A DNA stretch of 53,959 bases, taken from Massilia mucilaginosa. GTDB taxonomy: Bacteria > Pseudomonadota > Gammaproteobacteria > Burkholderiales > Burkholderiaceae_D. The position numbers were made by a program, and so were the translations under genes. This document shows positions 1-17,556 of this stretch, piece by piece (the first letter of the stretch is position 1; every line of letters starts with the position of its first letter). Location: contig NZ_WHJH01000047.1 of NCBI RefSeq assembly GCF_011682145.1, forward strand, positions 1-53,959, read 5' to 3'. The notes beneath the pieces were generated by a model. That model did not search any database. It had not been told where the DNA came from and saw only the letters and a program-made list of their open reading frames with translations.

Positions 1-707
1 TCGCGGCAACGTGCTTCTCCCAAAAAACGGTCGTGTTTTCCATGCTTGCTCCGGTATCAAATCGAAGTAGCAAGAATGCGGAAATTCGGATTAGCCAGCA
101 AGTCTGGGGTTTATGGAGCGCTTACGGCAATTCCCCCTCGCCGCAGTTACACACTGGCGCCCATGCCAGCAACCACAGGGCTAATGTCGCAAGGGTTTCT
201 GAACGCGCAATAGACGCGAAAGCCGTTGCGAATCAAATGGTTGCGGCAGAGCGTGCAATGCCGACGTCGCAGGTTTCTGAACGGATCGGCGGCGAGTGCG
301 CGGCCGGCGCCGGACCTCCAGCTTGGCCGGGCCGGCCCGGCGGCTGCGAGGTAACAAGTAACGCGCGTGCGCGCAAGGAGCCGGTCCAGCTCTCATCGTG
401 TTGTGGCGGCTGGTCGCCTGTGAGTGCGGTCGCGCGGACCAGTCTACAGAGGTGCGCTGACCAGCGTGGGCGGCCTTTCAGTGGCGCCGTGACGGCGCTA
501 GAACTGGCAGCGGCGGGCTTCCTGTGCCATCGGTATGGGCAAAGTGCCGGAAAGTGCCGGGAAGTGCAGCTTAACGCCGCACGGTGTCCGGGCTGGATGG
601 CACAGCGCAAGGTCGACCGTGATACATTCGATTAGCCAGCGCGCTACTTCGGGCAGGCCAGCGGCGGGAACTGAGGGCCGGAGGACGCAATGGCAAAGTA
701 AGATGCC
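1..707. other. Gene-poor accessory stretch downstream of the nuclease/PRT operon
   Basis: I see no convincing gene in these 707 bases. The open frames across it are GC-driven, lack recognisable motifs and have no good ribosome binding site. Small structures are present: an imperfect direct repeat containing TTTCTGAACG near 194 and near 272, and a short tandem repeat AAAGTGCCGG twice plus a partial third copy near 540-568. No integrase or transposase fragment could be recognised. The stretch may be decayed mobile DNA belonging to the same accessory patch as the operon at 708-2356, but that is inference. Confidence 0.4.
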
Positions 708-1424
708 TTAAGCAGTTGTGGCAGCAGGAAAAAACTTCTTGCGGCGCTCTTTGACGATGTCAGGTACATACCGATTTTTCTCAGTTCGGTTACCGAGGCC
801 CAGCAATTCATAAAGCGAGCCCCCTATTCCGGGAAGCACACTTTCTCCATCAGCGGCTTTTTCGCTATCCGTGACGAAGTGCACAAACTTAAACTTTGAG
901 CTAATTGCGTCAGGGAACTCTTGCGCTAAGCGATCTTCAGCACCCACTAGCATGACCGGGGACGCAACAAAGATTTCCGATGGATCGGCGAACGAAATTG
1001 CGCGAGTCAAGTTGGTCTTAACTACGCAGGCGCCAGAGATAATTGCCTTCACGACAACAAACGTCGAATGTTTGGGGTCGAAGTCCTCTTTATACTGTCG
1101 AGTAATTGGGGAGAGCGATACCCCGTTCTTGCTAATCTTGTCATTCCACAAGCAGATAAGGTGAAGGCGACTACCGAAGCCGCGCTGCTCTAGTTCCTCG
1201 ATCAGTCCACGTCCGAGAAAATCCGCATCCTCGACAGTGCAGACCACGCATATGTCGTTCTCAAGGCCTTTGTCAAGTTGAGGCGCCACACCGGCACCAA
1301 GGTGCTTACCAATCTGACGCATTTGATCACGATACTTCAGCGGATTATTCTGGATAGTGTGGAGCTCTTCCACCAGTTGTCGAGCAACCGGATCATGATT
1401 AGAGTAGGAAGTGAAAGTTCTCAT
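708..1424 (-). CDS. Degenerate uracil-phosphoribosyltransferase-like protein, second gene of a putative defence operon
   Basis: A 238-residue soluble protein with the layout of type I phosphoribosyltransferases of the uracil PRT kind. The hydrophobic strand FVVVKAIISGACV (residues 122-134) sits where these enzymes carry the PRPP-binding loop. A strand and helix ending in AQEFPD (167-172) follow, then VLPGIGGSLYELLGLG (196-211), which matches the C-terminal PGxGD-type region of uracil PRTs. The usual acidic pair of the PRPP loop is replaced by Lys-Ala, so it may bind a nucleotide ligand rather than catalyse. A basic tail (KERRKK) closes the protein. The start is fixed by GAGGAG 8 nt upstream and by a 4-nt ATGA overlap with the nuclease stop codon, so the two are translationally coupled. 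Base composition is AT-richer than the flanking housekeeping genes. Function as a sensor or regulator of the nuclease is inference. Confidence 0.6.
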   Translation of the reverse strand: MRTFTSYSNHDPVARQLVEELHTIQNNPLKYRDQMRQIGKHLGAGVAPQLDKGLENDICVVCTVEDADFLGRGLIEELEQRGFGSRLHLICLWNDKISKNGVSLSPITRQYKEDFDPKHSTFVVVKAIISGACVVKTNLTRAISFADPSEIFVASPVMLVGAEDRLAQEFPDAISSKFKFVHFVTDSEKAADGESVLPGIGGSLYELLGLGNRTEKNRYVPDIVKERRKKFFPAATTA

Positions 1425-2356
1425 GGCAGTAGCTCCTCAAAGCCATCAAATGTCGTCGGTTGTTTAAGTTCAATTAATGCCTGAAAGTCATTGAAGCGTT
1501 CATCAGCACAATCGAAATCTAACGCGCCATGTGTTCCAAAACCTGACCACGCAAAGAACCCTTGGGTGACATCGTACGTTAATCCCGATATTCCAGCAAG
1601 AGTATTGACAAACTGAGCACGCAGGTGTACTTGCTCAACGACTCCAACTCTTCTAAGCTGGTGAGGGAGATAGCGCTGTGCAACATCTAGCACATCGTCC
1701 ACGCTGCCGCCGTCCGGGAAATCGCCACAGGCCATCACGAGCACGCCTAACACACCAGCGAGTTGGTCATCAGTTGGATTGCGCGACCGCGCCAGACTGC
1801 CGAGTACGCTGTGAAAGGACGGGTTCTCAATTACCCAACGGTTTAGGGTCGGGCTATACGGGAAATGAATCACGCCGGAATGGGACCTGATTGCGGCCGG
1901 CACATCAGCACTGAGCTTAGCCGCAAGCGCGGTTGAGGATACGACGATACTTGTCTTGGGTGTTGGCTGTTGAAGAAAGTTCGCGAGACGATACTGGTAC
2001 GAAAAATCGGTTACAACCGGGTGCTCGCCTGCTGTCCAACTGATTGTTGCTGCGTTTTTCAGCTGGAAATAATTCGTTGCCATTGCGTCCCGAATCACCA
2101 CGTCATCTACAAAGCTCTGCGCCTGGCCACTCACGTGAGGCCATGGATCGGTTGTTGACGTACGAAGTGAAACGATCTCTGCAACCTTATACGCAAGAAA
2201 TAGATCCTCATATCGCGTTCCCTTCTTGCCATTCTGACCGCCACGATGCTTATTCGCTGCGTAGTTAGCGGCGGCTTGACCCAAACCGCACGCAATTATT
2301 GCCGCTGCGGTGGTTGAAGCCACTCCAGGAACATTTTGGGACGGTGGTTGAGTCAT
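1421..2356 (-). CDS. PD-(D/E)XK nuclease resembling Cap4/DUF4297, first gene of a putative defence operon
   Basis: A 311-residue protein whose residues 46-102 carry the pattern of a restriction-like PD-(D/E)XK nuclease of the Cap4/DUF4297/Mrr type: GTRYED with E50, then FVDDVVI with D84/D85, then YFQLKNA with Q98-x-K100. In that fold these residues bind the metal ion and cut DNA. The N-terminal 45 residues are low-complexity and include an Ala-rich helix. The C-terminal half (about 140-311) matches no family I recognise and probably senses or regulates. There is no ATPase or helicase motif, and no CD-NTase, HerA or SMC partner is adjacent. The upstream space to the tRNA-Thr terminator is only 56 nt and must hold the promoter; AAGG lies 6 nt before ATG. 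The location beside a tRNA 3' end and the low GC point to horizontal acquisition. Confidence 0.65.
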   Translation of the reverse strand: MTQPPSQNVPGVASTTAAAIIACGLGQAAANYAANKHRGGQNGKKGTRYEDLFLAYKVAEIVSLRTSTTDPWPHVSGQAQSFVDDVVIRDAMATNYFQLKNAATISWTAGEHPVVTDFSYQYRLANFLQQPTPKTSIVVSSTALAAKLSADVPAAIRSHSGVIHFPYSPTLNRWVIENPSFHSVLGSLARSRNPTDDQLAGVLGVLVMACGDFPDGGSVDDVLDVAQRYLPHQLRRVGVVEQVHLRAQFVNTLAGISGLTYDVTQGFFAWSGFGTHGALDFDCADERFNDFQALIELKQPTTFDGFEELLP

Positions 2357-2412
2357 CAGAACCTTGAAAGTTTCCGTAAGAAATTCCTACATGGTGCCTA
2401 CACGGCGCAGGA

Positions 2413-2443
2413 TAAAAAAAGCCCAGCCATATTTGGCCGGGCT
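2413..2443 (-). terminator. Intrinsic terminator of tRNA-Thr
   Basis: A 10-bp stem with one A-C mismatch (2420-2429 paired with 2434-2443) and a 4-nt loop is followed, reading on the minus strand, by a run of seven T. It lies 17 nt past the tRNA 3' end and insulates the tRNA from the nuclease operon. Confidence 0.8.
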
Positions 2444-2459
2444 AAGTTATTGATTTTAT

Positions 2460-2535
<76 letters not shown>

Positions 2536-2561
2536 GAAACTTTTACAGCTGCGATTATACG

Positions 2562-3086
2562 CTATTTGATGCGCGTGAGCGTCGGACGGCCACCTTTTTT
2601 AGGCGGATCGTTGTTGTCGTCCGGCGCCGGCGCGGTCGCCGGCACGCCCGTCGGCGCACTGTCCGCACCCGTGACCGGCACGCTCTGCAAGCCCACCGGC
2701 GGCACCTTGGCCAGCGCCGGCACGCTCGACAGCGGGCTGTCGGTCGGCTGGCTGGCCGCGTTCTCGGACGCCGTGCTGCTCACTTCGAACGCCATCCCCT
2801 GGCCGTTCTCGTTGCCGTAGATCGCCAGCACATTTTGCACCGGTACGTAAATCTCGCGCGAGACGCCGCCGAAGCGGGCGTGGAACTGGATCGCGTCATT
2901 GTCCATCTTCAGGCCCGAGGTGGCGCCGAAGCTGATGTTAAGAACGATTTCGCCTTTTTTGACGAATTCCATCGGCACCGTCGTAGCGGCGTCGACCTTG
3001 ACGGCGAGGTAGGGCGTGAACCCGTTGTCGGTGCACCACTCGTAAATGGCGCGCAGCAGGTAGGGCTTGGTTGAGATCTCGGGCAT
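2562..3086 (-). CDS. sspB: Stringent starvation protein B, ClpXP adaptor
   Basis: SspB delivers ssrA-tagged polypeptides from stalled ribosomes to the ClpXP protease in the cytoplasm. The 174-residue protein shows the conserved folded domain (about residues 1-105: TKPYLLRAIYEWC, IVLNISFGAT, IQFHARFGG, IYVPVQNVLAIYG). A long flexible Pro/Ala/Ser-rich linker follows, then a C-terminal ClpX-binding tail GGRPTLTRIK resembling the E. coli tail. The linker is the variable part of the family. It lies 106 nt downstream of sspA on the same strand, the usual sspAB arrangement, and the tRNA-Thr follows closely and may be read from the same transcript. Identification is secure. Confidence 0.95.
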   Translation of the reverse strand: MPEISTKPYLLRAIYEWCTDNGFTPYLAVKVDAATTVPMEFVKKGEIVLNISFGATSGLKMDNDAIQFHARFGGVSREIYVPVQNVLAIYGNENGQGMAFEVSSTASENAASQPTDSPLSSVPALAKVPPVGLQSVPVTGADSAPTGVPATAPAPDDNNDPPKKGGRPTLTRIK

Positions 3087-3192
3087 GTTCTGTCGTGGTG
3101 TGATACGCGGTGATCACGCCAGTCTACTGCGATTGGCCCGAAGGCGTCGTGACTGGCGTGATACGGAAGTTGCGGTAAGCGTCGGCCGCCGA

Positions 3193-3804
3193 TCAGCGGC
3201 GCATGACTTTCTCGGACGGGGTCAGCGCTTCGATGTAGGCCGGACGCGAGAAAATGCGCTCGGCGTACTTCATCAGCGGCGCTGCCGTCTTCGACAGTTC
3301 GATGCCGTAGTGGTCCAGGCGCCACAGCAGCGGGGCCACCGCCACGTCGAGCATCGAGAATTCGTCGCCGAGCATGTACTTGTTCTTCAGGAACAGCGGC
3401 GCGAGCGTGGTCAGGCGGTCGCGGATTTCGGCGCGGGCCTTGTCGTGGCTCTTGTCGTTGGCCTTGGCGCGCTCGCTTTCGAGCACGTGCACATGGACGA
3501 ACAATTCTTTTTCGAAGTTGAACAGCATCAGGCGCGCGCGCGCGCGCATCAGCGGATCGGCCGGCATCAGTTGCGGATGCGGGAAGCGCTCGTCGATGTA
3601 TTCGTTGATGATGTTCGATTCGTACAGGATCAGTTCGCGCTCGACCAGGATCGGTACCTGGCCGTACGGATTCATCGTCGAGATGTCTTCTGGCTTGTTA
3701 AACAGGTCCACATCGCGCACTTCGAAGTCCATGCCCTTTTCGAACAGGACCAGGCGGCAGCGTTGGGAAAACGGGCACGTGGTGCCGGAGTAGAGAACCA
3801 TCAT
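3193..3804 (-). CDS. sspA: Stringent starvation protein A (GST-fold RNA polymerase-associated regulator)
   Basis: SspA binds RNA polymerase and modulates promoter choice under starvation and acid stress. The 203-residue protein has the glutathione-S-transferase fold typical of the family: an N-terminal thioredoxin-like half starting MMVLYSGTTCPFSQRCR, the motif NPYGQVPILVE and ESNIINEYIDERFPHP, then an all-helical C-terminal half. Length matches the family. Two consecutive ATG codons are available and the first is used here. A run of alternating G and C near 3536-3550 encodes Arg-Ala repeats and is only coding bias. The gene follows the petABC genes on the same strand, separated by a hairpin at 3863-3885. 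Confidence 0.95.
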   Translation of the reverse strand: MMVLYSGTTCPFSQRCRLVLFEKGMDFEVRDVDLFNKPEDISTMNPYGQVPILVERELILYESNIINEYIDERFPHPQLMPADPLMRARARLMLFNFEKELFVHVHVLESERAKANDKSHDKARAEIRDRLTTLAPLFLKNKYMLGDEFSMLDVAVAPLLWRLDHYGIELSKTAAPLMKYAERIFSRPAYIEALTPSEKVMRR

Positions 3805-3862
3805 TTTTATAGTTCCTTAGAAACAAAGGGGGTGAAACGACGAGCGGATCACCCCGAAATGT

Positions 3863-3885
3863 GCCCGCTGAATGACTCAGCGGGC
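3863..3885 (-). terminator. Hairpin between petC and sspA, possible partial terminator
   Basis: A perfect 9-bp GC-rich stem (GCCCGCTGA/TCAGCGGGC) with a 5-nt loop lies between the petC stop and the sspA start. No strong T run follows on the minus strand, so it may only attenuate read-through from the pet operon into sspA. Confidence 0.45.
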
Positions 3886-3909
3886 AATGAATGAAGCGTG
3901 CAGCCTGCC

Positions 3910-4671
3910 TTACTTGACTTCTTTCCAGAACGATGCGCTCAGGCGCCATGCGAACAGGGCGAAGATCGACATCAGGAACAAGACCCACACGCCCAGGCTC
4001 TTGCGGGTGGCGGCGGCCGGCTCGGCCATCCACTCGAGGTAGGCAACCAGGTCGGCCGTCGCTTCGTCGAACTGGAGCGGCGTCATGGTGCCAGGCGTCA
4101 CTTGGGTAAAGCCAGCGAACTTGTGCACGGTTTTGCTTGCATCATGCGGATCTTTGACTTCATCCATCTTGACGGTGCGCACACCCTGCTGTTGCCACAT
4201 GACGTGCGGCATGGCGACGTTGGCCACCACCATGTTGTTCCATCCGGTCGGACGGGTATCGTCCTTGTAGAAGGTACGCAGGTAGGTGTACAGATAGTCG
4301 GGGCCGCTGCCGGCCGAGGAGGCCTTGGCGCGCGCGATCACGGACAGGTCGGGCGGTACCACGCCGAACCATTCCTTGGCGTCGGCCGGGCGCAGCGCGG
4401 TGGTCATCAGCGCGCCGACTTTTTCACCGGTAAACAGCAGGTTTTCCTTGATTTGCTCTTCCGTCAGCCCCAGGTCTTTCAGGCGGTTGTAGCGCATCGA
4501 GGAAGCCGAGTGGCAGTTCAGGCAATGGTTGACGAACAGCTTGGCGCCGTTTTGCAGCGAGGCCAGGGCCGGGCGCGCAGGCGCCTTGTCCAGCGGATGG
4601 GTGCCTTCGCTGGCCAACGCCAGGCCCGGCAGCAATGCCAGGATCGCGATCAGTTTTTTCGGAAAATTCAT
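3910..4671 (-). CDS. petC: Cytochrome c1 subunit of the bc1 complex
   Basis: Cytochrome c1 passes electrons from the Rieske protein to soluble cytochrome c on the periplasmic side of respiratory complex III. The 253-residue protein begins with a signal peptide (MNFPKKLIAILALLPGLALA). The haem c motif CLNCH is at C50-C53-H54. The region NVAMPHVMWQ holds a Met candidate for the distal haem ligand. A C-terminal transmembrane anchor (VWVLFLMSIFALFAW) ends in a short positive tail. An open frame continues 93 codons upstream, but it is the antisense-like GC shadow inside petB; the ATG at 4671 directly precedes the signal peptide. It is the last gene of petABC, 29 nt after petB. Confidence 0.95.
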   Translation of the reverse strand: MNFPKKLIAILALLPGLALASEGTHPLDKAPARPALASLQNGAKLFVNHCLNCHSASSMRYNRLKDLGLTEEQIKENLLFTGEKVGALMTTALRPADAKEWFGVVPPDLSVIARAKASSAGSGPDYLYTYLRTFYKDDTRPTGWNNMVVANVAMPHVMWQQQGVRTVKMDEVKDPHDASKTVHKFAGFTQVTPGTMTPLQFDEATADLVAYLEWMAEPAAATRKSLGVWVLFLMSIFALFAWRLSASFWKEVK

Positions 4672-4700
4672 GTAATGTCCTTTTGCTGTGATGTCGTCGA

Positions 4701-6113
4701 TTAGTGCGGATGGAACGTCACACGTTTCGGCACGGGCTTGAAGGTGCCCATCGAGCTCCACCAAGGCATCAACATGAAGAAACCGAAGTACAACAGCGTG
4801 CACACTTGCGATGCGGCCGTGAAGAAGGCGGTCGGCAACTGGGTGCCGAGGTAGCCCAGGGTCACGAACGACAGGCCGAACACCATGTACACATACTTGT
4901 GCCAGTCGGGACGGTAGCGGATCGACTTGACCGGCGACTTGTCCAGCCACGGCAGGGCGGCGATGATCATCACCGACGAACCGAACAGGACCACGCCCCA
5001 GAATTTCGCATCGAGCACCTGCGGCAGCATGCCGATGATGACCAGCAGCGCGAAACCGGCGATGGCGGCCTTGACGATGAACGGCAGGCGCGTCTTGACC
5101 CAGATGAAGGCCACGTACAGGGCGATCGCACCCATCAGCACATACATGAAGTCGGCCGTGGTGGCGCGCAGCACCGAGTAGAACGGCGTGAAGTACCAGG
5201 TCGGGGCGATGTGCGCCGGGGTCTTGAGCGAATCGGCCGGGATGAAGTTGTTGTACTCCAGGAAGTAGCCGCCCATTTCCGGGGCAAAGAACACCACCGC
5301 GCTGAAGATCAGCAGGAACACCGACACGCCGAACAGATCGTGCGCCGAGTAGTAAGGATGCGACGGGATCGAATCGAGCGGATGGCCGTCCGGACCCAGG
5401 GTTTCCTTGACTTCGATGCCGTCAGGATTGTTCGAACCGACTTCGTGCAGCGCGATCAGGTGGGCGGCAACCAGGCCCAGCAGAACCAGCGGGATCGCGA
5501 TCACGTGGAAGGCGAAGAAGCGGTTCAGGGTGGCGTCGGAAACAACGTAGTCGCCGCGGATCCACAGCGACAGGTCGGGGCCGATGAAAGGAATCGCACC
5601 GAACAGGTTGACGATCACCTGGGCGCCCCAGTACGACATCTGGCCCCATGGCAGCAGGTAGCCGAAGAAGGCTTCGGCCATCAGGCACAGGAAGATCGCA
5701 AAGCCGAACAGCCAGATCAGTTCGCGCGGTTTGCGGTAGGAACCGTACAGAAGGCCGCGCGTCATGTGCAGATAGACGATGATGAAGAAGGCCGAGGCGC
5801 CGGTCGAGTGCATGTAGCGCACCAGCCAGCCCCACGGTACTTCGCGCATGATGTATTCAACCGAACCGAAGGCCAGGTTGGCGTCCGGCTTGTAGTGCAT
5901 GGTCAGGAAGATACCTGTGACGATCTGCAATACCAGCACCAGCATCGCGAGCGAGCCGAAGATGTACCAGAAATTGAAGTTTTTCGGGGCGTAGTACTGG
6001 CCCCACTGGTCGTTCCAGAGTTTGGTCAGGGGAAAGCGGTCGTCCACCCAGCCCAGTGCCTTGTCGGCCACCGGCGCATTCGCGGGGAACTTGGTTTCTT
6101 TGAAAGCGGCCAT
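4701..6113 (-). CDS. petB: Cytochrome b subunit of the bc1 complex
   Basis: This is the membrane-embedded subunit of complex III with two b haems and the quinol oxidation and quinone reduction sites. The 470-residue protein shows the family landmarks: GSLAMLVLVLQIVTGIF, the haem-ligand helices containing RYMHSTGASAFF and FFAFHVIAIPLVLLG, the GYLLPWGQMSYW segment, and the Qo-site Pro-Glu-Trp-type region as PTWYFTPFYSVLRA. At least eight hydrophobic segments are visible. Length is typical for betaproteobacterial cytochrome b, longer than the mitochondrial form by a C-terminal extension. It starts 2 nt after the petA stop, so the two are tightly coupled. Confidence 0.96.
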   Translation of the reverse strand: MAAFKETKFPANAPVADKALGWVDDRFPLTKLWNDQWGQYYAPKNFNFWYIFGSLAMLVLVLQIVTGIFLTMHYKPDANLAFGSVEYIMREVPWGWLVRYMHSTGASAFFIIVYLHMTRGLLYGSYRKPRELIWLFGFAIFLCLMAEAFFGYLLPWGQMSYWGAQVIVNLFGAIPFIGPDLSLWIRGDYVVSDATLNRFFAFHVIAIPLVLLGLVAAHLIALHEVGSNNPDGIEVKETLGPDGHPLDSIPSHPYYSAHDLFGVSVFLLIFSAVVFFAPEMGGYFLEYNNFIPADSLKTPAHIAPTWYFTPFYSVLRATTADFMYVLMGAIALYVAFIWVKTRLPFIVKAAIAGFALLVIIGMLPQVLDAKFWGVVLFGSSVMIIAALPWLDKSPVKSIRYRPDWHKYVYMVFGLSFVTLGYLGTQLPTAFFTAASQVCTLLYFGFFMLMPWWSSMGTFKPVPKRVTFHPH

Positions 6114-6115
6114 GG

Positions 6116-6721
6116 TTATGCCTCGCCTTTCTCGTCTTTACCGATGATCAACTTGTCGCCCACGTACATGTGGCGCGGCACTTCGAGGTTGTCCGGCGCC
6201 GGCTTGTTCTTGAACACGCGGCCGGCCAGGTCGAAGGTCGAACCGTGGCAAGGGCACAGGAAACCGCCCGCCCAGTCGTCCGGCAGGTTGGGCTGGGCGC
6301 CTTCCGCGAACTTCGAGGTTGGCGAGCAGCCCAGGTGCGAGCAGATGCCGACCGCGACCAGGTAGTCGGGCTTGATCGAACGGTGTTCGTTGCGCGCGTA
6401 CTCGGGCGTGAGCATGTCCGGCGTACGCTCGGACTTCGGATCGGCGACCGCGTTGTCGGTCTTTTTCAGCGACGCCAGCATTTCCGACGAACGCTTGAGA
6501 ATCCACACGGGCTTGCCGCGCCATTCCACGGTTTTCATTTCGCCGACAGCCATGCCGGCAATATCCACTTCCACCGGCGCGCCAGCGGCTTTTGCCTTCT
6601 CCGACGGCTGGAATGTGCTTACCAAGGCTCCCGCCGTGGCCAAACCGACAACACCACCCGCCGCGCACGTAGCGGCGAGCATGACGCGTCGGCCCGGATC
6701 GACCTGCTTTTCGTTACTCAT
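6116..6721 (-). CDS. petA: Rieske iron-sulfur subunit of the bc1 complex
   Basis: The Rieske subunit carries the 2Fe-2S cluster that takes the first electron from quinol. The 201-residue protein has an N-terminal twin-Arg-containing membrane anchor (RRVMLAATCAAGGVVGLATAG, split here for description). The two cluster-binding boxes are CSHLGC (C127, H129, C132) and CPCHGS (C156, C158, H159), with C132 and C158 placed for the stabilising disulfide. It is the first gene of the petABC operon; a promoter with a perfect TATAAT lies about 70 nt upstream. Identification is secure. Confidence 0.97.
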   Translation of the reverse strand: MSNEKQVDPGRRVMLAATCAAGGVVGLATAGALVSTFQPSEKAKAAGAPVEVDIAGMAVGEMKTVEWRGKPVWILKRSSEMLASLKKTDNAVADPKSERTPDMLTPEYARNEHRSIKPDYLVAVGICSHLGCSPTSKFAEGAQPNLPDDWAGGFLCPCHGSTFDLAGRVFKNKPAPDNLEVPRHMYVGDKLIIGKDEKGEA

Positions 6722-6785
6722 ACCAACCCCAATCAGTCAAAATGCGAAATCTTAAAAAGCTACTTAGAGCTTCTAGCAACCTTAA

Positions 6786-6814
6786 ATTATAAGGGAAGAG
6801 GGGGGCGAGTTAAA
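6786..6814 (-). promoter_or_regulatory. Probable sigma-70 promoter of petABC
   Basis: On the minus strand a perfect TATAAT (6786-6791) is preceded, after a 17-nt spacer, by TTTAAC (6809-6814), a weak match to the -35 consensus. It lies 65-93 nt before the petA start codon. Confidence 0.55.
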
Positions 6815-6952
6815 GAAAAAATGTTGCTCGTGCGCCTGTCAAGAGCGAATCATCGCCAATTTGAAACGAATCGGCCGCCCGTTGCCGGCATTTCGCGCGC
6901 GCCGGCCCTGTTTGCGGGGCGATAGCGGTGCGCTGGGAACCGATGACACGGT

Positions 6953-6980
6953 TTGGTTTCTAACAGCGGTGCGGTATGAT
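6953..6980 (+). promoter_or_regulatory. Possible sigma-70 promoter of mscL
   Basis: TTGGTT (6953-6958), a 16-nt spacer and TATGAT (6975-6980) form a plausible promoter 36 nt before the mscL start codon. The match is moderate. Confidence 0.45.
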
Positions 6981-7016
6981 CGGGGATGGCTATTTCACAA
7001 TCCTAGGGTGGCAAGA

Positions 7017-7436
7017 ATGACGATGATGAGCGAGTTCCGGCAGTTCGCAATGAAGGGCAATGTGGTCGATCTCGCCGTCGGCGTGATCATCGGTGGTGCT
7101 TTCGGCAAGATTGTCGATTCACTGGTGCAAGACATCATCATGCCGCCCATCGGCCGCCTGTTCGGCGGGCTCGATTTCGCCAATTACTATATCCCGCTCA
7201 ACAACCAGGCCATGAACCTGACCCTGGTCGAAGCCAAGAAAGCCGGCGCGGTGCTCGCGTACGGCAATTTCCTCACCATCCTGCTCAATTTCATCATTCT
7301 CGCCTTCATCATCTTCCAGATGATCCGCCTGATGAACAAGCTGCGCCGCGCCGAGGAAGCGCCTGCGGTGGCGGCCGCGCCGACCCCCGAAGACGTGCTG
7401 CTGCTGCGCGAGATCCGGGATTCCCTGAAAAAATAG
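7017..7436 (+). CDS. mscL: Large-conductance mechanosensitive channel
   Basis: MscL is a homopentameric inner-membrane channel that opens under extreme membrane tension to release solutes during osmotic downshock. The 139-residue protein has the N-terminal amphipathic helix ([19 protein letters not shown]), transmembrane helix 1 ([13 protein letters not shown]), a periplasmic loop around residues 50-75, transmembrane helix 2 ([18 protein letters not shown]) and the C-terminal charged helix ending [10 protein letters not shown]. The open frame extends 52 codons upstream, but the family begins at this point, so the ATG at 7017 is chosen; ATG codons at 7023 and 7026 are alternatives. Convergent in position with the protease gene that follows 13 nt later. 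Confidence 0.94.
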
Positions 7437-7449
7437 ACAGGAGGGCGCG

Positions 7450-8598
7450 ATGCGGCGCTGCTGGTTGTTGTTTTCGCAAGTGGTGACGATTGCCCTGGCC
7501 CTGTACTTCGTGGCCGCGGCGCTGCGCCCGGACTGGCTGGCGTGGCCGGCGCGCCGGGTTGAACCGGCCAAGGTCGCCAGCAACGTGTCGGTGCTGCAGG
7601 CGCCCGGCGCGGCGCCGGCCTCGGGCAGCTATCGCGAGGCGGCCGGGCGCGCCATGCCGGCCGTCGTCAACATCCTCACGAGCAAGAACCAGGGACGCGA
7701 GCATCCGCTGCTGAAAGACCCGTTCTTCCGCCGCTTTTTCGGCGACCGCCTGCCGCCCGGGGAGCAGCAGGCCAGCCTCGGCTCCGGCGTGATCGTCAGC
7801 CCGGACGGCTATATTCTCACCAACAACCATGTGATCGAAGGCGCCGACCAGATCCAGGTGGTGCTGGCGGACGGGCGCAAGGCGCCGGCGCGCCTGGTCG
7901 GCACCGACCCCGAGACCGACCTGGCGGTGATCCGGATTGAGGCGCGCAACCTGCCCGCGATCGTGCTCGGCAACGACGACGCCGTGCGCGTGGGCGACGT
8001 GGTGCTGGCCATCGGCAACCCGTTCGGGGTCGGCCAGACCGTCACCCTGGGCATCGTGTCCGCGCTCGGGCGCAACAACCTGCACATCAACCAGTTCGAG
8101 AACTTCATCCAGACCGACGCCGCGATCAACTTCGGCAACTCGGGCGGCGCCCTGGTCGATACCAACGGCAACCTGCTCGGCATCAATTCGGCCATCTATT
8201 CGCAGAGCGGCGGCTCGGTCGGGATCGGTTTTGCGATTCCCGTCACCACCGCCAGGACCGTGCTCGACGCCATCATCCGCCACGGCGCCGTGGTGCGCGG
8301 CTGGATCGGCATCGAAACCCAGGACATCACGCCCGAGCTGGCCGACAGCTTCGGGCTGGCGCAGCAAAGCGGCACCATCATCGCCGGCGTGGTGCGCAAC
8401 GGCCCGGCCGACCGCGCCGGGCTGCGTCCGGGCGACATCTTGCTGGCGGTCGACGGCAAAGAGGCCGGCAACACCAACGACACCTTGAACCTGATCGCGC
8501 AGCTGGCGCCGGGCGGCAAGGCTACAATGACCGTGATGCGCAAGAACCGCCCGGCAAAGGTCGACGTCACCATCGGCAAGCGCCCGCGTCCGCAGTAA
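7450..8598 (+). CDS. Do-like periplasmic serine protease (DegS/AlgW type, one PDZ domain)
   Basis: A 382-residue envelope protease of the HtrA family, anchored by one N-terminal transmembrane segment (about residues 5-26). The trypsin-like domain (about 65-270) has the catalytic triad H127 in TNNHVIEGA, D157 in DPETDLAVI and S231 in NFGNSGGALVD. A single PDZ domain follows (about 285-375: GWIGIETQDI, AGLRPGDILLAVDGKE). One PDZ domain plus a membrane anchor is the DegS/AlgW arrangement, as opposed to the two PDZ domains of DegP. Family members cut regulatory or misfolded proteins in the periplasm. In betaproteobacteria such a gene is often found near petABC. No sigma-E or anti-sigma gene is adjacent, so the substrate is unknown. 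Confidence 0.9.
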   Translation: MRRCWLLFSQVVTIALALYFVAAALRPDWLAWPARRVEPAKVASNVSVLQAPGAAPASGSYREAAGRAMPAVVNILTSKNQGREHPLLKDPFFRRFFGDRLPPGEQQASLGSGVIVSPDGYILTNNHVIEGADQIQVVLADGRKAPARLVGTDPETDLAVIRIEARNLPAIVLGNDDAVRVGDVVLAIGNPFGVGQTVTLGIVSALGRNNLHINQFENFIQTDAAINFGNSGGALVDTNGNLLGINSAIYSQSGGSVGIGFAIPVTTARTVLDAIIRHGAVVRGWIGIETQDITPELADSFGLAQQSGTIIAGVVRNGPADRAGLRPGDILLAVDGKEAGNTNDTLNLIAQLAPGGKATMTVMRKNRPAKVDVTIGKRPRPQ

Positions 8599-8642
8599 GG
8601 ACTCCCGGGGACCTCGACACCCCCTTCTTTTTTGGATTGACA

Positions 8643-9332
8643 ATGCATTTGCGCGACCTGACGCAGTTTTTGAACGAATTAAGCGAAAATAACAACCGTC
8701 CCTGGTTCATCATGAACAAGCCGCGCTACGATATCTTGCGCGAAGAATTCCTGGCCGTCGTGACCGAACTGATTAGCGAACTGAGCAAATTCGACCGGCA
8801 GGTGGCGGCCTGCAATCCCAAGAAAGCCATGTTCCGGATCAACCGCGACATCCGCTTCGCCACCGACAAGCGCCCGTACAAGACGCGCTTTTCGGCCGGC
8901 ATCACGCCCAGGGATTTGCGGCGCCCGAGTGCCGGTGGCGGTTCCACCTACTATTTCCAGATCGACGGCAGCGGCAAGCTGCAGTTCGGGGTCGGCGAAT
9001 ACCTGCCGCCGGCGCCGCGCCTGAAGGCGATCCGCGAGCACATCGTCAACGATGCGACAGGATTTGCCAAAGTAATGAAGAATAGACAACTGCGCGCCAC
9101 CTACGGCGACCTGCTGGACGAAGACAAGCTGCAGCGTCCGCCCAAGGGCTTCGATCCGCAGCACGTGCATGTCGAGTATCTGAAGCTGAAAAGCTTTTTT
9201 GTCTGGACCGCGATCGACCTCAAGGTCAATCAGCCGGACCAGCTGGTGCCGGACCTGGCGCGCGGATTCAAAGATGCCTTCGCGCTGGTGACGTGGTTGC
9301 GCAGCGTGGAGATGAGCAATCCGGAAGAATAA
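8643..9332 (+). CDS. DUF2461 domain protein
   Basis: A 229-residue protein matching the DUF2461 family (TIGR02453) as I know it: LTQFLNELSENNNRPWFIMNKPRY at the start (the conserved Asn-Arg/Trp-Phe segment), then FRINRDIRFATDKRPYKT and a central strand set FQIDGSGKLQFGVGEY. The family has no established function. A TTG codon six bases upstream is possible, but ATG at 8643 is more likely. It lies 44 nt after the protease gene and 11 nt before the cupin gene, so it is probably cotranscribed with the latter. Confidence 0.85.
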   Translation: MHLRDLTQFLNELSENNNRPWFIMNKPRYDILREEFLAVVTELISELSKFDRQVAACNPKKAMFRINRDIRFATDKRPYKTRFSAGITPRDLRRPSAGGGSTYYFQIDGSGKLQFGVGEYLPPAPRLKAIREHIVNDATGFAKVMKNRQLRATYGDLLDEDKLQRPPKGFDPQHVHVEYLKLKSFFVWTAIDLKVNQPDQLVPDLARGFKDAFALVTWLRSVEMSNPEE

Positions 9333-9343
9333 AGGGAAACATC

Positions 9344-9673
9344 ATGGCCTTACAACATGCCGCCTCGGGCGAACTGATTCCACTGCAACGCGGCGACGAC
9401 GACATTGCCCATTTCACCTCGGTGGCGCTGGCCAAGACCGAGAACATGGAGCTGATCCGGCTGGTGCTGCCGAAGGACCGCGACATGCCGGTGCACAAGG
9501 TCGATGGCGAGATTACCTTGCTGTGCCTGCAGGGCGAGATCGTCTGCGATGCGTACGGCAAGAGCGTGCTGCTGCGCCCCGGCGAGATGCTGTACCTGCT
9601 GGGCGGCGTGCCGCATGGCTTGCGCGCGAACGAAGATGCGGTCGCGCTGTTGACCATCTTGCTCAAGCCCTGA
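9344..9673 (+). CDS. Small single-domain cupin protein
   Basis: A 109-residue protein forming one cupin barrel. The two cupin motifs are visible but weak: MPVHKVDGEITLLCLQGEI (His and Glu candidates for metal binding) and LLRPGEMLYLLGGVPHGLR (final His). Function cannot be deduced; such proteins range from enzymes to ligand sensors. The start ATG at 9344 is preceded by AAAGGGAAAC, a good ribosome binding site; the open frame runs further upstream only because it overlaps the DUF2461 gene end. Likely in an operon with that gene. Confidence 0.8.
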   Translation: MALQHAASGELIPLQRGDDDIAHFTSVALAKTENMELIRLVLPKDRDMPVHKVDGEITLLCLQGEIVCDAYGKSVLLRPGEMLYLLGGVPHGLRANEDAVALLTILLKP

Positions 9674-9735
9674 GGCCGGGGCGGTGGCAAGGGACGGGTT
9701 AAGATGGTACTGAGCACATTCCTTCGGAGAATCCC

Positions 9736-10452
9736 ATGGACCGCCACCGTTTTTTGATACTTGCGTTCGCCTTGAGCGTGATGCGGGCGGGAGCCGCTGC
9801 CGAGAGCGGCGACATCCACGTTTCCACGCTGGTCGGCAGCGACCCGGCCACCAGTGTCGCCGAACTGGTCATGGGCGAAGCCTATCGCCGTATCGGCCGG
9901 GTGCTGGTGGTGCACAAGCTGCCCGGAGAACGCACCCTGATGATGGCTAACGAAGGCCGGATGGATGGCGAGCTGTATCGAAAGGTCGGCATGGAGCGGG
10001 ACTATCCGAACCTGACGATCGTTCCCGTGCCCTTGCTGACCTATGAGATCGTCATCTTCACGCGCGGGACCGATTTCGTCGTCAACGGCTGGGAAAGTTT
10101 GCGGCCGTTCACGATTGGCTATGTGCGCGGTATCAAGATCGTCAAGGAAAATACGGCGGGCATGAAGACCGAAGCGGTGCCTGCCATGGGACAGGCTTTC
10201 CAGAAGCTGGCCATGGGCCGCACCGATGTCGTGGTCGGCAACCGCCTGTCGGGACTGGCTGCCGCCGAGACCCTCGGGATCGACGATGTGCGCGTGCTCT
10301 CGCCCGCACTGGCCTCGTTCCCGGTCTACCACTACGTGAACAAGAAGCACGCCGCGCTGGTGCCGGCACTGGTGGCGGCCCTGCAGGCAATGAAGGCGGA
10401 CAAGACCATCGACAGGCTGCAGAAACAGGGCGCGCGCGGCGCGCGGCCCTGA
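9736..10452 (+). CDS. Exported solute-binding-like protein (SBP_bac_3 type)
   Basis: A 238-residue protein with an N-terminal signal peptide (to about residue 22, cleavage near GAAAE). The sequence then follows the two-lobed periplasmic binding-protein pattern of the family 3 kind: STLVGSDPATSVAELVMGEAYRRIG, a segment near residue 75 with GRMDGELYR, and the second-lobe return TIGYVRGIKIVKEN. The FxxLAMGRTDVVVGN region is typical of the family. No permease or ATPase gene is adjacent, so it may be an orphan binding protein or sensor rather than part of a transporter. GGAGA lies 9 nt before the start codon. Confidence 0.75.
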   Translation: MDRHRFLILAFALSVMRAGAAAESGDIHVSTLVGSDPATSVAELVMGEAYRRIGRVLVVHKLPGERTLMMANEGRMDGELYRKVGMERDYPNLTIVPVPLLTYEIVIFTRGTDFVVNGWESLRPFTIGYVRGIKIVKENTAGMKTEAVPAMGQAFQKLAMGRTDVVVGNRLSGLAAAETLGIDDVRVLSPALASFPVYHYVNKKHAALVPALVAALQAMKADKTIDRLQKQGARGARP

Positions 10453-10508
10453 TGTGCGGCGGCGCGCAGTGCCCGTTCCGGGCAATCGGCGCCGCCTGAG
10501 GCCCTGCG

Positions 10509-11549
10509 TCAGGTCAATTCATCGCGCGGATCGCGCGCCAGCAATTGCGCCAGCATCGCCTGCGGCGTTCCGCCGTCGAACAGCACGCCGGCCACCGCGT
10601 TGGTGATCGGCATATCCACTCCCAGCGTGAGGGCCAGCGCCCGTACCGCCTTGGCGCACGGCACGCCTTCGGCCACGTGCCCGAGTTCGGCCACGATGGT
10701 TGCCAGGGCCTTGCCCTGCGCCAGCCCCAGCCCCACGCGCCGGTTGCGCGACAAGTCGCCGGTGCAGGTCAAAATCAGGTCGCCCATCCCGGTCAAGCCC
10801 ATGAAGGTTCCCGCAACCCCGCCCAGCGCCATGCCCAGCCGCGTGATTTCGGCCAGCCCGCGCGTGATCAGCGCCGCGCGCGCATTCAGGCCCAGCCCCA
10901 GTCCATCGGCCACGCCGGTGGCGATCGCCAGCACGTTCTTGACCGCGCCGCCCACTTCCACGCCGACCAGGTCGTCGCAGGAATACACGCGGATATTGCC
11001 GCCATGCACAGTGGACACCACCCGCTCGCGCAGCATCTCCGAGCGCGACGCCACTGTCAGCGCACACGGCAGGCCGCGCGCGACTTCCTGCGCGAACGAC
11101 GGTCCCGACAGCGCGGCGCCGGCCACCCCGGCGCCCAGCACCTGGCCGACCACCTGATGCGGCAACAGGCCGGTATCGCCCTCGAAGCCCTTGCAAAGCC
11201 AGACGATGTGCGAGATTGCGTGCGGTTTGAGTTGCAGCAGCAGCGGCCGCAGCCCGGCCACCGGACAGGCCGCGATCAGCAGCGGGGCCTGGTCCTCGGG
11301 CGTGCCGAGCACATGCGCCAGCGCGGCATCGAAGTCGGCCGTCACCCGCAGCCCGGGCGGAAACGCGCAGCCGGCCAGGTAGGCGCGGTTCTCGCGCTGC
11401 GCGCCCATCGCCGCCATGGCGCCGCCGTTGCGGCCCCACATCAGCACATCATGGCGCGCCGCCAGGGCGATCGCCACGGCCGTGCCCCAGGCGCCCGCGC
11501 CCAGCACCGTGATCTTGCGGTTTGAAACGTTGTGCGTGCTCGTTGGCAT
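10509..11549 (-). CDS. gpsA: NAD(P)-dependent glycerol-3-phosphate dehydrogenase
   Basis: GpsA reduces dihydroxyacetone phosphate to sn-glycerol 3-phosphate, the backbone for phospholipid synthesis. The 346-residue protein has the Rossmann motif [12 protein letters not shown], the family segment [15 protein letters not shown], the catalytic-lysine region [17 protein letters not shown] and the [12 protein letters not shown] signature. ATG at 11549 is chosen over a GTG 18 nt upstream because it lies 6 nt after the upstream gene's stop codon and fits family length. It is the last gene of a group running rhodanese-grxC-secB-SH3-gpsA; secB and gpsA are neighbours in many proteobacteria. Confidence 0.95.
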
Positions 11550-11554
11550 GGGGC

Positions 11555-11998
11555 TCAGGTGCCCCACACGTCGGCGGCGCGCATATAGCCGCTGATGCCG
11601 TCACGATGACGGACTTTGATCCAGCCCGAGGCCGGGGCATCGAGCAGTTCCAGCAGCACGCCCTTGTCGGCGGTCATCACCGGATTGGCGTCGGCGTCGG
11701 CCGTGCCGCGCACTTTGGCGTTGGCGCTGCGCACCACCACGGTGCGGCGCGGGCTCAGCGATTTGGCTTCGGCCCAGGCCAGGTCGCCGCCGGCGTCGCG
11801 CAGCTTGACCCAGTCGCCATAGGTGAGCACGACTTCGACCGGCATGCCGCGCGGCGCGATGAACAGCTTGGCGCCTTTGAGCGAGGGTGCGTCATACAGG
11901 ATCAGGCTGGCCGCGCCGACGCTCTTGAATTCGAGGGCGTGCGCGCAAGCCGGGGCCAGCACGAATGCGGCACTGAGAAGAAAACGGGGAATTGTCAT
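11555..11998 (-). CDS. Exported bacterial SH3-domain protein
   Basis: A 147-residue secreted protein with a signal peptide ([21 protein letters not shown]). Two small SH3-like beta domains follow: residues about 23-85 ([45 protein letters not shown], quoted separately) and about 88-147 ([37 protein letters not shown]). Bacterial SH3 domains often bind peptidoglycan or protein peptides in the envelope. ATG at 11998 is preferred over a start 48 nt upstream because it directly begins the signal peptide. It lies 5 nt before gpsA and, on its upstream side, 133 nt from a 160-bp inverted-repeat element. Confidence 0.85.
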
Positions 11999-12130
11999 TG
12001 CGTGGCCTTCGCCGTGAGAGTGCAGGGTGGCGGCCGCCAGCGGCAAGGGAGACCCGTGCCTGGACAGGACCCGCGCGCAGTCGATGGAGTCGATAGCGCG
12101 CGGGCGGCCCGGCCCACCCTGCGGCTTGCC

Positions 12131-12290
12131 TAGAGCCTATCTCGGCAGACCGGAGTCGCTGCTGGCGCGCCTGGCAGGCGGGGGCGGCGTTGCTCGTCGT
12201 TGCATGGCTAGCCATGCGGCCTCCTCGCGCCTTGCCCGCGCCGGCCATGCACTGCCACCAGCTTCCCCCGGTCTACCGAAATAGGCTCTA
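12131..12290. repeat. 160-bp inverted-repeat (MITE-like) element A
   Basis: The ends form a 23-bp imperfect inverted repeat (12131-12153 and 12268-12290, 21 of 23 matches, outermost bases TAGAGCCTAT). The interior holds a perfect 16-bp palindrome GCATGGCTAGCCATGC and the motif GCGCCTTGCC. The right end supplies the TAG stop codon of secB. Length, core motifs and position at a stop codon are shared with the element at 44811-44971. It encodes nothing. It could be a miniature transposable element or a structured 3'-end RNA module. Confidence 0.75.
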
Positions 12291-12761
12291 GTGTGCTGCG
12301 GTGTCGGCTGGGGCAGCGGCGGCTGCTTCAGCGAGCGCCTGGCGGCGCTGCTGGTAGAACACTTCGAAATTGATCTCTGCCAGATGCACAGGCGGGAAGC
12401 CGGCACGGGTGATCACGTCGGCGATATTGCCGCGCAGGTAAGGGTAAACGATGTTCGGGCAGCCGATTCCCAGCAGGGGATCCATCTGGTCCGCAGGAAT
12501 GTTGCGCGCTTCGAAGATACCAGCTTGCTTGCCTTCAACCAGGAACGCAACCTTGTCCTTGACCTTGGCGGTCACGGTGATGGTGACGGTCGACTCGTAG
12601 ATGCCGTCGGCGATGGCTTCGGCGCCAACGTCCAGCGACACTTCGATCGACGGCGCTTCTTGCTCGAGGAAGATGGCTGGGGAATTCGGCTGTTCCAGCG
12701 ACATGTCTTTCAGGTAGACGCGTTGGATTTGGAATACGGGTTGCAGATTTTCGTCAGACAT
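12288..12761 (-). CDS. secB: Protein-export chaperone SecB
   Basis: SecB is a homotetrameric cytoplasmic chaperone that keeps precursor proteins unfolded and hands them to SecA. The 157-residue protein matches the family along its length: [19 protein letters not shown], the acidic strand around [10 protein letters not shown], the segment [16 protein letters not shown] and [17 protein letters not shown]. An Ala-rich tail ([14 protein letters not shown]) ends at a TAG stop that lies inside the terminal repeat of element A. Upstream, a perfect 8-bp hairpin (12788-12806) sits between grxC and secB and may shape the mRNA. Identification is secure. Confidence 0.97.
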
Positions 12762-12909
12762 GGAACGCTTTCGTTGAGAAATTAACAGAACGGCGACACG
12801 CCGTTCCCTCTGTGCTTGGACTTCAAACGCGACGGCAATTGTAGCAAAATCATACGACTTGAAATAGTTTTGCGCAATCGATTACCGGCGACCCGGGACT
12901 ATATGCCGA

Positions 12910-13173
12910 TCAAACCCCTTTTAACAAGGGATCGAGTCGTCCTTGTTGATCGAGCGCATACAAATCGTCGAAACCGCCGACGTGCGTCTCGCCCACGTAA
13001 ATCTGGGGCACGGTGCGGCGTCCGGTCCTGTTCATCATGACCACTTTCTGGTCCGGGTCGAGGTCGACGCGGATTTTCTCGATATCGGTCACGCCCTTCG
13101 CTTCAAGCAGGCGCTCGGCGCGCACGCAATACGGGCAGGAGGCGGTATGGTAGAGCACTACATGGGCTGTCAT
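12910..13173 (-). CDS. grxC: Glutaredoxin 3
   Basis: A small cytoplasmic dithiol oxidoreductase that uses glutathione to reduce disulfides. The 87-residue protein has the active site C13-P-Y-C16 (SCPYCVRAERLL), the cis-proline TVPQIYV and the glutathione-binding GGFDDLYAL, all in their normal places. The start ATG at 13173 is chosen because it gives the usual glutaredoxin length; the open frame continues upstream into the rhodanese gene. It lies 13 nt after the rhodanese stop codon and upstream of secB, an arrangement common in proteobacteria. Confidence 0.95.
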   Translation of the reverse strand: MTAHVVLYHTASCPYCVRAERLLEAKGVTDIEKIRVDLDPDQKVVMMNRTGRRTVPQIYVGETHVGGFDDLYALDQQGRLDPLLKGV

Positions 13174-13186
13174 GGTGTTTCCTTTC

Positions 13187-13588
13187 TCACTTTGCAATCG
13201 GCAAGCCAGCGGCTTGCCATGCGGTCTGGCCACCGTCGAGGCTGAACACGTCGGTAAAACCGGCGCCTTCGAGGATCTTGATGGCCTTGTCGGCACGCGC
13301 GCCGGTCTGGCACACGACGACAACGGTTTTGCTTTTCGCCTTGTCGAGCTCGGCTATGCGGGATGACAAGTCTGCCAGCGGAATGTTTTTCGCGTCGCGC
13401 AAATGCCCGTTTGCAAATTCTTCCGCCGTGCGCACGTCCACCACCACGGTCTTGCCGCGGTTGATGAGCTGGGTCACCTGCAAGGTGGAAGCACGTTTTC
13501 CGCGTGGTTGCAGCGCCGGCCAGAGCAGGGCGCCACCCGACAGCACGACGATGCTGACGATAAAAATATGGTCAATAATGAATTTCAC
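13187..13588 (-). CDS. Membrane-anchored rhodanese-domain protein
   Basis: A 133-residue protein with an N-terminal transmembrane anchor (FIIDHIFIVSIVVLSGGALL) and one rhodanese domain (about residues 35-133). The active-site loop is CQTGARA with the catalytic Cys, preceded by VVDVRTAEEFANGHL, the CH2A-like box. Single-domain rhodaneses of this sort carry persulfide sulfur; the substrate here is unknown. It is the first gene of the rhodanese-grxC-secB group and is divergent from gpmA, with 147 nt between them. Confidence 0.88.
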   Translation of the reverse strand: MKFIIDHIFIVSIVVLSGGALLWPALQPRGKRASTLQVTQLINRGKTVVVDVRTAEEFANGHLRDAKNIPLADLSSRIAELDKAKSKTVVVVCQTGARADKAIKILEGAGFTDVFSLDGGQTAWQAAGLPIAK

Positions 13589-13735
13589 GGGGTTCCAATG
13601 GTTTAGGACAATCCGCGCATTATAAAATAGAAGCCGGATCTGCTATAACTTCACCTTTGCTGCATCGATAGTTAGCGCTGGCACTCACCATTTTCGCATC
13701 GCACCCCTTTTCCTCACTCTTTTGAAAAATTGCTT

Positions 13736-14482
13736 ATGTACAAAATTGTCTTCATGCGCCACGGCGAATCCACCTGGAACCTCGAGAACCGCTTCACCGG
13801 CTGGACCGACGTCGACCTGACCGAAAAAGGCGTGCGCGAAGCGCGCAGCGCCGGCCAGGTGCTCAAAGAGGCCGGCTTCACCTTCGACGTGGCCTACACC
13901 TCGGTGCTCAAGCGCGCCATCCGCACCCTGTGGCTGGCGCTCGACGACATGGACATGATGTGGCTGCCGATCAAGAACGACTGGCGCCTCAACGAGCGCC
14001 ACTACGGCGCCCTGCAGGGCCTGGACAAGGGCGAGACCGCCGCCAAGTACGGCGACGCCCAGGTGCTGGTCTGGCGCCGCAGCTACGACACGCCGCCGCC
14101 GGCGCTCGAAGCGTCCGACGAGCGCACCTCGTTCAACGATCCGCGCTACAACGGCGTGCCGAAAGACAGCATTCCCCTGACCGAATGCCTGAAAGACACC
14201 GTGGCGCGCGTGATGCCGGTGTGGGATGAGGAAATCGCCCCGGCCATCCGCGCCGGCAAGAAAATCCTGATCTCGGCCCACGGCAACAGCCTGCGCGCCC
14301 TGATCAAAATGCTCGACGGCATCAGCGACGACGACATCGTGGGCCTGAACATCCCCAACGGCCAGCCGCTGGTGTACGAGCTCGACGCCGACCTGAAACC
14401 GATCCGCCACTACTACCTGGGCGACCAGGATGCCATCGCCGCCGCCGTCGCGGCGGTTGCCAATCAAGGGAAGGCCAAGTAA
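13736..14482 (+). CDS. gpmA: 2,3-bisphosphoglycerate-dependent phosphoglycerate mutase
   Basis: GpmA interconverts 3-phosphoglycerate and 2-phosphoglycerate in glycolysis and gluconeogenesis. The 248-residue protein has the phosphohistidine motif R8-H9-G10-E ([10 protein letters not shown]), the substrate loop [15 protein letters not shown], the [15 protein letters not shown] segment and the second histidine in [16 protein letters not shown] at 13736 is preferred over an in-frame TTG six bases upstream because it gives the canonical MYKIV start. It is followed after 3 nt by envC. Confidence 0.97.
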
Positions 14483-14485
14483 GTT

Positions 14486-16006: not shown

Positions 16007-16028
16007 CGGTATTACTATAGGTAGAAGA

Positions 16029-17531
<1,503 letters not shown>

Positions 17532-17556
17532 TGCAGCACAGTACGGCCCGCACGCG

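Follow-up and report, generated by a model that had tools for sequence, protein, structure and literature searches.

A recurrent two-gene operon of a candidate PD-(D/E)XK nuclease and a uracil phosphoribosyltransferase-like protein: a possible mobile defence-type module

We analysed a 53,959-nt stretch of DNA from Massilia mucilaginosa (GCF_011682145.1, contig NZ_WHJH01000047.1, positions 1 to 53,959), hereafter the window. Close to one end of it lie two genes, gene 1 and gene 2, followed on the gene-1 side by a tRNA gene and two repeats (Table 1). An earlier note on this DNA, made from the sequence alone, had described the two genes as overlapping by ATGA, and the ORF coordinates agree with this. 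Only 707 bp of contig remain past gene 2, and the view of the locus stops there on that side. Between gene 2 and the contig end (window 1-640), the open frames look non-coding by eye and no convincing gene was seen. The ORFs beyond the tRNA-Thr presumably encode SspB- and SspA-like proteins and cytochrome bc1 subunits, which we take to be ordinary genes. The tRNA-Thr at 2460-2535 and the mobile-element context described below were both absent from the earlier note.

Table 1. Features of the locus in window coordinates.
Feature	Position	Strand	Basis or remark
Gene 1, PD-(D/E)XK (Cap4/DUF4297-like) nuclease candidate, 311 aa	1421-2356	minus	E50, D84-D85, Q98-x-K100, Q121
Gene 2, UPRT-like protein, active-site loops altered, 238 aa	708-1424	minus	profile and alignment
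ATGA start/stop overlap, gene 1/gene 2	1421-1424	minus	ORF coordinates
tRNA-Thr (TGT)	2460-2535	minus	3' end 103 bp upstream of gene-1 start
Probable attachment core, 48 bp = 3' end of tRNA-Thr	2460-2507	minus	exact repeat at G000:C397:15731-15778
18-bp repeat, probable integrase arm site	2386-2403	minus	second copy on C397, some 130 bp inward of the attachment-core repeat there

Gene 1 had been read in the earlier note as a Cap4-like nuclease because of a signature of E50, D84/D85 and Q98-x-K100. These residues lie at the positions named and are invariant in all 56 homologues found by protein search (E≤1e-3, query counted), together with K36, G39, G40, G46, Y49, Q78, W107, D117, Q121 and P300. 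A set of 48 divergent gene-1 rows still shares D84, D85, Q98, K100, W107, P153 and F165 without exception, and at least 90% of these rows keep E50 and Q121. We take the E - DD - QxK pattern to be the signature of the PD-(D/E)XK nuclease superfamily, and its catalytic residues are therefore present across the divergent family. The protein search with the divergent alignment, in which the best 8000 candidates were scored, returned at least 48 proteins, a figure that does not count the size of the family. Conservation is concentrated in the predicted nuclease part, where mean pairwise identity is 0.38 (residues 20-125) versus 0.30 in residues 126-311.

Profile matches to gene 1 come from its relatives. 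The window protein itself has no match in Pfam, PADLOC or NCBIfam at E≤10, and hence none to a Cap4-like profile at its curated cut-off; PDB profile searches with gene 1 found no nuclease. Pfam Cap4_nuclease (PF14130) matched one of the 48 rows at 9.5e-5, the best E-value of the 13 families matched at E≤0.1, and RPN13_C matched two (best 0.041). PADLOC LmuA (DUF4297) matched two of 64 mixed rows (32 gene-2 and 32 gene-1; best 0.0096). With the motif conservation, the Cap4_nuclease and LmuA matches support the nuclease class. One gene-1 row (alignment A6) also matched the Pfam effector-associated domain EAD2 at E 0.0066, too weak to use. A scan of viral contigs with gene-1 alignment A1 confirmed no relative, yet one contig of that collection (L057) carries gene 1, which shows that the scan was insensitive. 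Judging by its motifs, gene 1 probably encodes a DNA nuclease of the PD-(D/E)XK superfamily, in which the C-terminal region is the less conserved part.

For gene 2, protein search returned 378 homologues at E≤1e-3, query counted, and among the matches listed is a protein (P0109) whose source name starts 'Uracil phosphoribosyltra'. The C-terminal motif PGIGGSLYELLG (residues 198-209) is the region that the earlier note had likened to uracil phosphoribosyltransferases (UPRTs). In an alignment of 53 gene-2 rows, its P198, G199, G202, Y205, L208 and G209 are invariant, and so are V64-E65-D66-A67-D68, K126, C133 and T137-N138; 36 residues are kept in at least 98% of the rows. The window protein has no match in Pfam, PADLOC or NCBIfam at E≤10, and a PDB search with a narrow gene-2 alignment found nothing. 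A profile of the 53 diverse rows found the Sulfolobus UPRT (1vst group) at E 9.2e-4, with a best domain i-E of 0.095 and profile positions 15-199 aligned, which amounts to a weak similarity over most of the length. Thirteen Pfam families were matched by gene-2 rows, and UPRTase (PF14681) took more rows than any other (6/53, best 1.9e-4). PADLOC PRTase_III-A, a phosphoribosyltransferase (PRTase) model, matched 11 of the 64 mixed rows (32 gene-2 and 32 gene-1, which rows not being given by the tool; best 4.2e-5). Comparison of gene 2 with 19 UPRTs by hhalign gave a probability of 0.4% for the narrow alignment and 9.7% (E 0.0033) for the diverse one. When 477 proteins (the 19 UPRTs, 48 gene-1 rows and 410 decoys) were scanned with the gene-2 profile, the UPRTs outranked the decoys as a group (Mann-Whitney p 1.3e-13), but the top single score, above every UPRT, belonged to one of the 410 decoys. 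The proposed likeness to UPRTs is thus upheld by the Pfam and PDB matches but, as the hhalign values indicate, it is a distant one.

The active site sets the two families apart. A joint MAFFT alignment of the 53 gene-2 rows and 19 UPRTs held 60 columns conserved at 90% or more in the UPRTs and 55 in gene 2; in seven of them the residue is the same, and 17 columns, those of the signature loops among them, are fixed in both families on different residues. The RAG of UPRTs is EDA in gene 2, DPMxATG is VKSIISG, with loss of the acid, and GLGDAGD is GIGGxxY. We take these to be the pyrophosphate, PRPP and uracil loops, respectively. Accordingly, the gene-2 family has neither the PRPP-loop acid nor the RAG and GLGDAGD loops of an active UPRT. 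By its sequence, gene 2 is a distant relative of the PRTase fold and closest to UPRT in its loop layout. Since the signature loops are replaced but fixed, gene 2 should not make UMP, and its loops nonetheless appear to be under strong selection. The genome has a UPRT of its own (at C11); this, the replaced signature loops and the sporadic occurrence of the pair rule out ordinary housekeeping salvage as the role of gene 2.

A search with gene 2 found 57 loci, 52 in the species-genome collection and 5 in viral contigs. Adjacency was counted in the 51 of these 57 whose contig extends 1 kb or more upstream of gene 2. Gene 1 lies directly before gene 2 in 44 of the 51, a count that takes in broken gene-1 copies (e.g. 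L014 and L037), and ATGA is found at the junction in 35 of the 51. The seven loci lacking an adjacent gene 1 are L019, L043, L050, L051, L053, L055 and L058, and in L050, L051 and L053 gene 2 itself is incomplete or fused. Six further loci did not enter the count, their contigs starting too close to gene 2; gene 1 is still visible in three of them. The earlier note had allowed that the pair might be a coincidence unique to this genome, and its recurrence in 44 of 51 related loci rules this out. Distance matrices of gene 1 and gene 2 from 37 loci and the window were strongly correlated (Mantel r 0.89; 0/5000 permutations as high, the largest reaching 0.41). The conservation across genomes that the note had proposed to check is therefore found both as adjacency and as co-inheritance. 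Gene 2 is the more conserved of the two, with a mean identity of 46% versus 33% for gene 1.

Hosts of the pair belong to Pseudomonadota, Cyanobacteriota, Myxococcota and Bdellovibrionota. It occurs in Beta-, Gamma- and Alphaproteobacteria and in cyanobacteria, while Myxococcota and Bdellovibrionota are each represented by one metagenome-derived locus (Nannocystis and Bacteriovorax). Two MAG contigs, assigned to Paceibacterota (L014) and Beijerinckiaceae (L020), are nearly identical to copies from Paraburkholderia and the viral collection and are possibly mis-binned. Within the genus and the family, the window's own genome is the only one with the pair (1/17 and 1/294 genomes). Both plasmid records with gene 2 also carry gene 1. 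On the gene-2 tree, four changes are needed for Pseudomonadota and two for Cyanobacteriota against shuffled means of 14.7 and 13.8, which points to a broad clustering of the family by phylum. Inside Pseudomonadota, rows from Chromatiaceae, Tahibacter and Xanthomonas group with betaproteobacterial rows, with supports partly below the tool's standard. The pair had no match in 50,697 phage records and neither protein matched PHROG at E≤0.01, which rules out a common phage gene. No DNA match was found in 20,395 E. coli records, a DNA search being blind to divergent relatives.

Gene 2 also occurs alone. In L014 gene 1 is broken into two frames and in L037 only its two ends are left, gene 2 being intact in both; L019 and L043 hold no trace of gene 1. 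Four IMG/VR contigs (L054, L055, L056 and L058) have an intact gene 2, no trace of gene 1 and a tRNA-Tyr just upstream. In L054, L055 and L058, homology to loci with the pair starts only in the final 30 bp or so of gene 1. The stretches concerned are L054:765-897, L055:7863-7995, L056:775-907 and L058:3743-3875. These cases fit a gene 2 that is tolerated alone, as a harmless partner would be; the evidence is only suggestive because the loci were chosen by a gene-2 search, which could miss the reverse case.

The window pair lies in what appears to be an integrated element. The last 48 bp of the tRNA-Thr recur exactly at C397:15731-15778 of the same genome, where no tRNA gene was found. An integrase gene starts 135 bp from this copy (L061:6259-7596; phrog_1, E 1.4e-30), with a helicase/primase-like gene further in (L061:2121-3020; phrog_5482 and phrog_239), and the identical 18-bp repeat lies inside each element end. 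Another genome of the genus (G006) has the unoccupied arrangement, an intact tRNA-Thr followed at once by the sequence that flanks the C397 copy (identity 78% over 60 bp, 77% over 708 and 92% over 429). With about 1.5 kb per side compared, G006 was the only one of 16 relatives to match this flank, besides a 66-bp match in another. The C397 element (L061, L145) thus probably targets tRNA-Thr. The attachment repeats show that both contig ends fit one element, and nothing more; in such an element, the pair and the integrase would lie at opposite ends. It is likely a prophage, a label that falls short of proof because six of eight C397 proteins have no PHROG match.

Similar settings were seen at other loci. 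In the 33 of 57 loci scanned for tRNAs, a tRNA or tmRNA ends 192-568 bp upstream of gene 1 in five (L002, L004, L015, L025 and L045), and a second copy of the tRNA end was not found within these stretches. A 10-kb Geminocystis plasmid carries the pair and a tyrosine recombinase, and on a conjugative plasmid of Chroococcidiopsis the pair lies beside N-6 DNA methylase and helicase genes. On the latter (plasmid pA, L144), helicase, N-6 DNA methylase, DUF2513 and Rpn-family genes form a same-strand run around the pair (2252-17915), and a 5-kb DEAD/DEAH helicase gene comes after the run.

We then compared the neighbours of the pair, up to two ORFs per side within 3.5 kb, with PADLOC. The comparison covered 177 of 181 proteins from 53 loci, leaving out four neighbours of at least 1300 aa and the near-duplicate loci L055, L056 and L058. 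At E≤1e-5, 150 models were matched in 88 proteins and 127 in the other 89, the top 25 listed including HEC-02, AriA, Old, type III restriction, PglX, PglZ, BrxA, Dsr2 and DruE. These are counts of models and not of genes, since the models are redundant and a single ATPase may hit a large number of them. Three models were matched by a control set of 88 proteins, taken from 186 ORFs on either side of UPRT and other PRTase loci; the control is shorter in sum (18,723 residues versus 28,324 and 30,014), comes from fewer taxa and includes some proteins cut by locus ends. ORFs more than 6 kb away (6-10 kb; 145 of 192 scanned) matched 209 models. The co-occurrence with defence islands that the earlier note had proposed to test is supported, but the enrichment describes the whole region and not the pair alone. 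Sorted by similarity, the neighbours formed 11 groups, each spanning two or three loci. Most groups join close relatives; L009/L018 (62%) and L022/L028/L046 (38-81%) do not obviously do so. As no neighbour family occurs in more than three of the 53 loci, a fixed third gene is not seen.

We read the pair as an undescribed two-gene defence-type module in which, most probably, a pseudoenzyme derived from UPRT would sense a nucleotide and gate a putative nuclease. In favour of such a module are the linkage and co-inheritance of the genes, their patchy spread, the defence-rich regions and the tRNA-Thr site. In the mechanism that we propose, gene 2, built on a UPRT scaffold with rebuilt catalytic loops, would bind a nucleotide-type ligand instead of making UMP. 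Probably co-translated with gene 1, it would form a complex with the nuclease and keep it inactive. Phage replication would alter the ligand and release the nuclease, which would then cut DNA, that of the phage and/or the host, and stop the infection. Nuclease activity, complex, ligand, direction of control and defence are all putative parts of this scheme, and we hold to a mobile defence-type module with a nuclease restrained until a phage changes the ligand only tentatively, at somewhat below an even chance. That gene 2 is specifically an immune sensor of a pyrimidine nucleotide, PRPP or a phage-made derivative, switching the nuclease on when the pool is distorted, is possible but doubtful. 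If true, two proteins would suffice for immunity, with no call for a cyclic-nucleotide synthase, a reverse transcriptase or an ATPase, and the monitoring of nucleotide pools would be linked directly to a nuclease in a small, testable system.

The roles could also be reversed, with gene 2 a toxic PRTase-fold effector acting on a nucleotide or derivative and the nuclease-fold protein a sensor of phage DNA, which we consider rather unlikely. Such a role for the PRTase has a precedent, proposed in passages of PMC9122126 and PMC12548924 for DprA with PRTase and for retron PRTases, and it would suit both the better conservation of gene 2 and the PRTase_III-A matches to the mixed rows. However, each of the 16 proteins examined from the 29 places found with the PRTase_III-A model retains a DD or TD in the loop, where gene 2 has neither, and none of them matches the gene-2 profile better than E 0.13. 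Moreover, it is gene 2 that persists intact where gene 1 is gone, and gene 1 retains its complete catalytic signature. The same loss of gene 1 while gene 2 remains is in line with a toxin-antitoxin (addiction) module, whose role would be to keep integrated elements and plasmids stable and not to act directly against phages. The overlapping two-gene operon and its presence on a 10-kb plasmid, on a conjugative plasmid and near tRNA genes also fit such a module. Typical antitoxins are short, DNA-binding proteins, whereas gene 2 is enzyme-like with 36 residues kept in at least 98% of 53 rows, and the surrounding regions are dense in defence-model matches; we therefore regard addiction as unlikely.

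Least probable, and in our view improbable, is a modification-linked restriction system in which gene 2 would be an active transferase altering DNA or a nucleotide and gene 1 would cut according to that mark. The invariant residues of the new loops (E65, D66, D68, K126, C133, T137 and N138) do suggest a working pocket, and many of the nucleases in defence islands are parts of restriction systems. Against this, neither a DNA-recognition domain nor a methyltransferase is among the Pfam matches of the two families or the NCBIfam matches of the window proteins, and we know of no DNA-modifying enzyme on a UPRT scaffold. For a gene 2 that senses nucleotides and gates the nuclease, the same residues are the candidate ligand pocket.

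The earlier note knew of no named system with this pair, and this still holds: PADLOC 2023 has no match to the window proteins and gives weak ones for their relatives, and no defence pair of a nuclease and a UPRT-like protein was found in the full text of open-licence PMC papers, a scope that excludes subscription papers and preprints. In PMC13092281, 42 E. coli defence systems are described; PD-(D/E)XK nucleases occur in many of them, and a PRTase is named in the legend of a figure. The system with this PRTase may overlap with our pair. Among the closest known systems are retrons of type III-A, which also place a PRTase fold in a defence operon and whose PADLOC model matches the mixed rows as given above. 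Unlike a retron, the pair is not joined at its loci by any recurring further gene, for example one for a reverse transcriptase. Rfam found only the tRNA and no retron ncRNA in window 1-3000, where the view is limited by the contig end, and the 16 model-found proteins differ from gene 2 in retaining an acidic loop and show no match to its profile. Together, these results rule out a retron for the family, and the best E-value of 0.13 in the reverse direction lends no support to close kinship with type III-A PRTases. By a motif scan only, the PRTase_III-A ORFs of nine loci (L148, L149, L152, L154-L157, L159 and L161) have neighbouring ORFs that contain an RT-like [YF]xDD motif, an arrangement that retrons should show. 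In the passages seen of PMC9122126, retron PRTase-fold proteins are regarded as probable effectors, the opposite of the role that we propose for gene 2. The same passages describe DprA with a PRTase in P2-like prophages, likewise a two-gene, prophage-borne set of a DNA-acting protein and a PRTase; by this description, its DNA partner is DprA and not a nuclease, which sets it apart.

PRTase-CE (PF24390) also links the PRTase fold to conflict systems, its name being, as we read it, that of a PRTase of conflict systems. It finds no support as the identity of gene 2: it is absent from the 13 Pfam families matched by gene-2 rows, and hhalign against three members gave a probability of 0.4%. With UPRT itself (Upp, PF14681), gene 2 shares the near full-length alignment to the Sulfolobus enzyme, P-G-x-G and the Asp before it, but its signature loops are replaced, it is paired with a nuclease and the genome has a separate UPRT. 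As to CBASS, no neighbour family, a CD-NTase included, recurs in more than three loci, and in the window the contig ends soon after gene 2. Partners of the cyclic-nucleotide, SMC or ATPase kind are known for Cap4-type nucleases. Gene 1 resembles the Cap4, DUF4297 and LmuA nucleases of CBASS, Lamassu and other systems in its E - DD - QxK residues and in the Cap4_nuclease and LmuA matches of its rows. It differs from them in that the window protein matches no model and that its partner is UPRT-like, with no fixed CD-NTase or SMC partner. A nuclease with a regulator is an arrangement of a known kind, and we rate the UPRT-derived partner as the new element: it is conserved, its loops are rebuilt, it occurs in no fewer than four phyla, and the defence models searched match it weakly.
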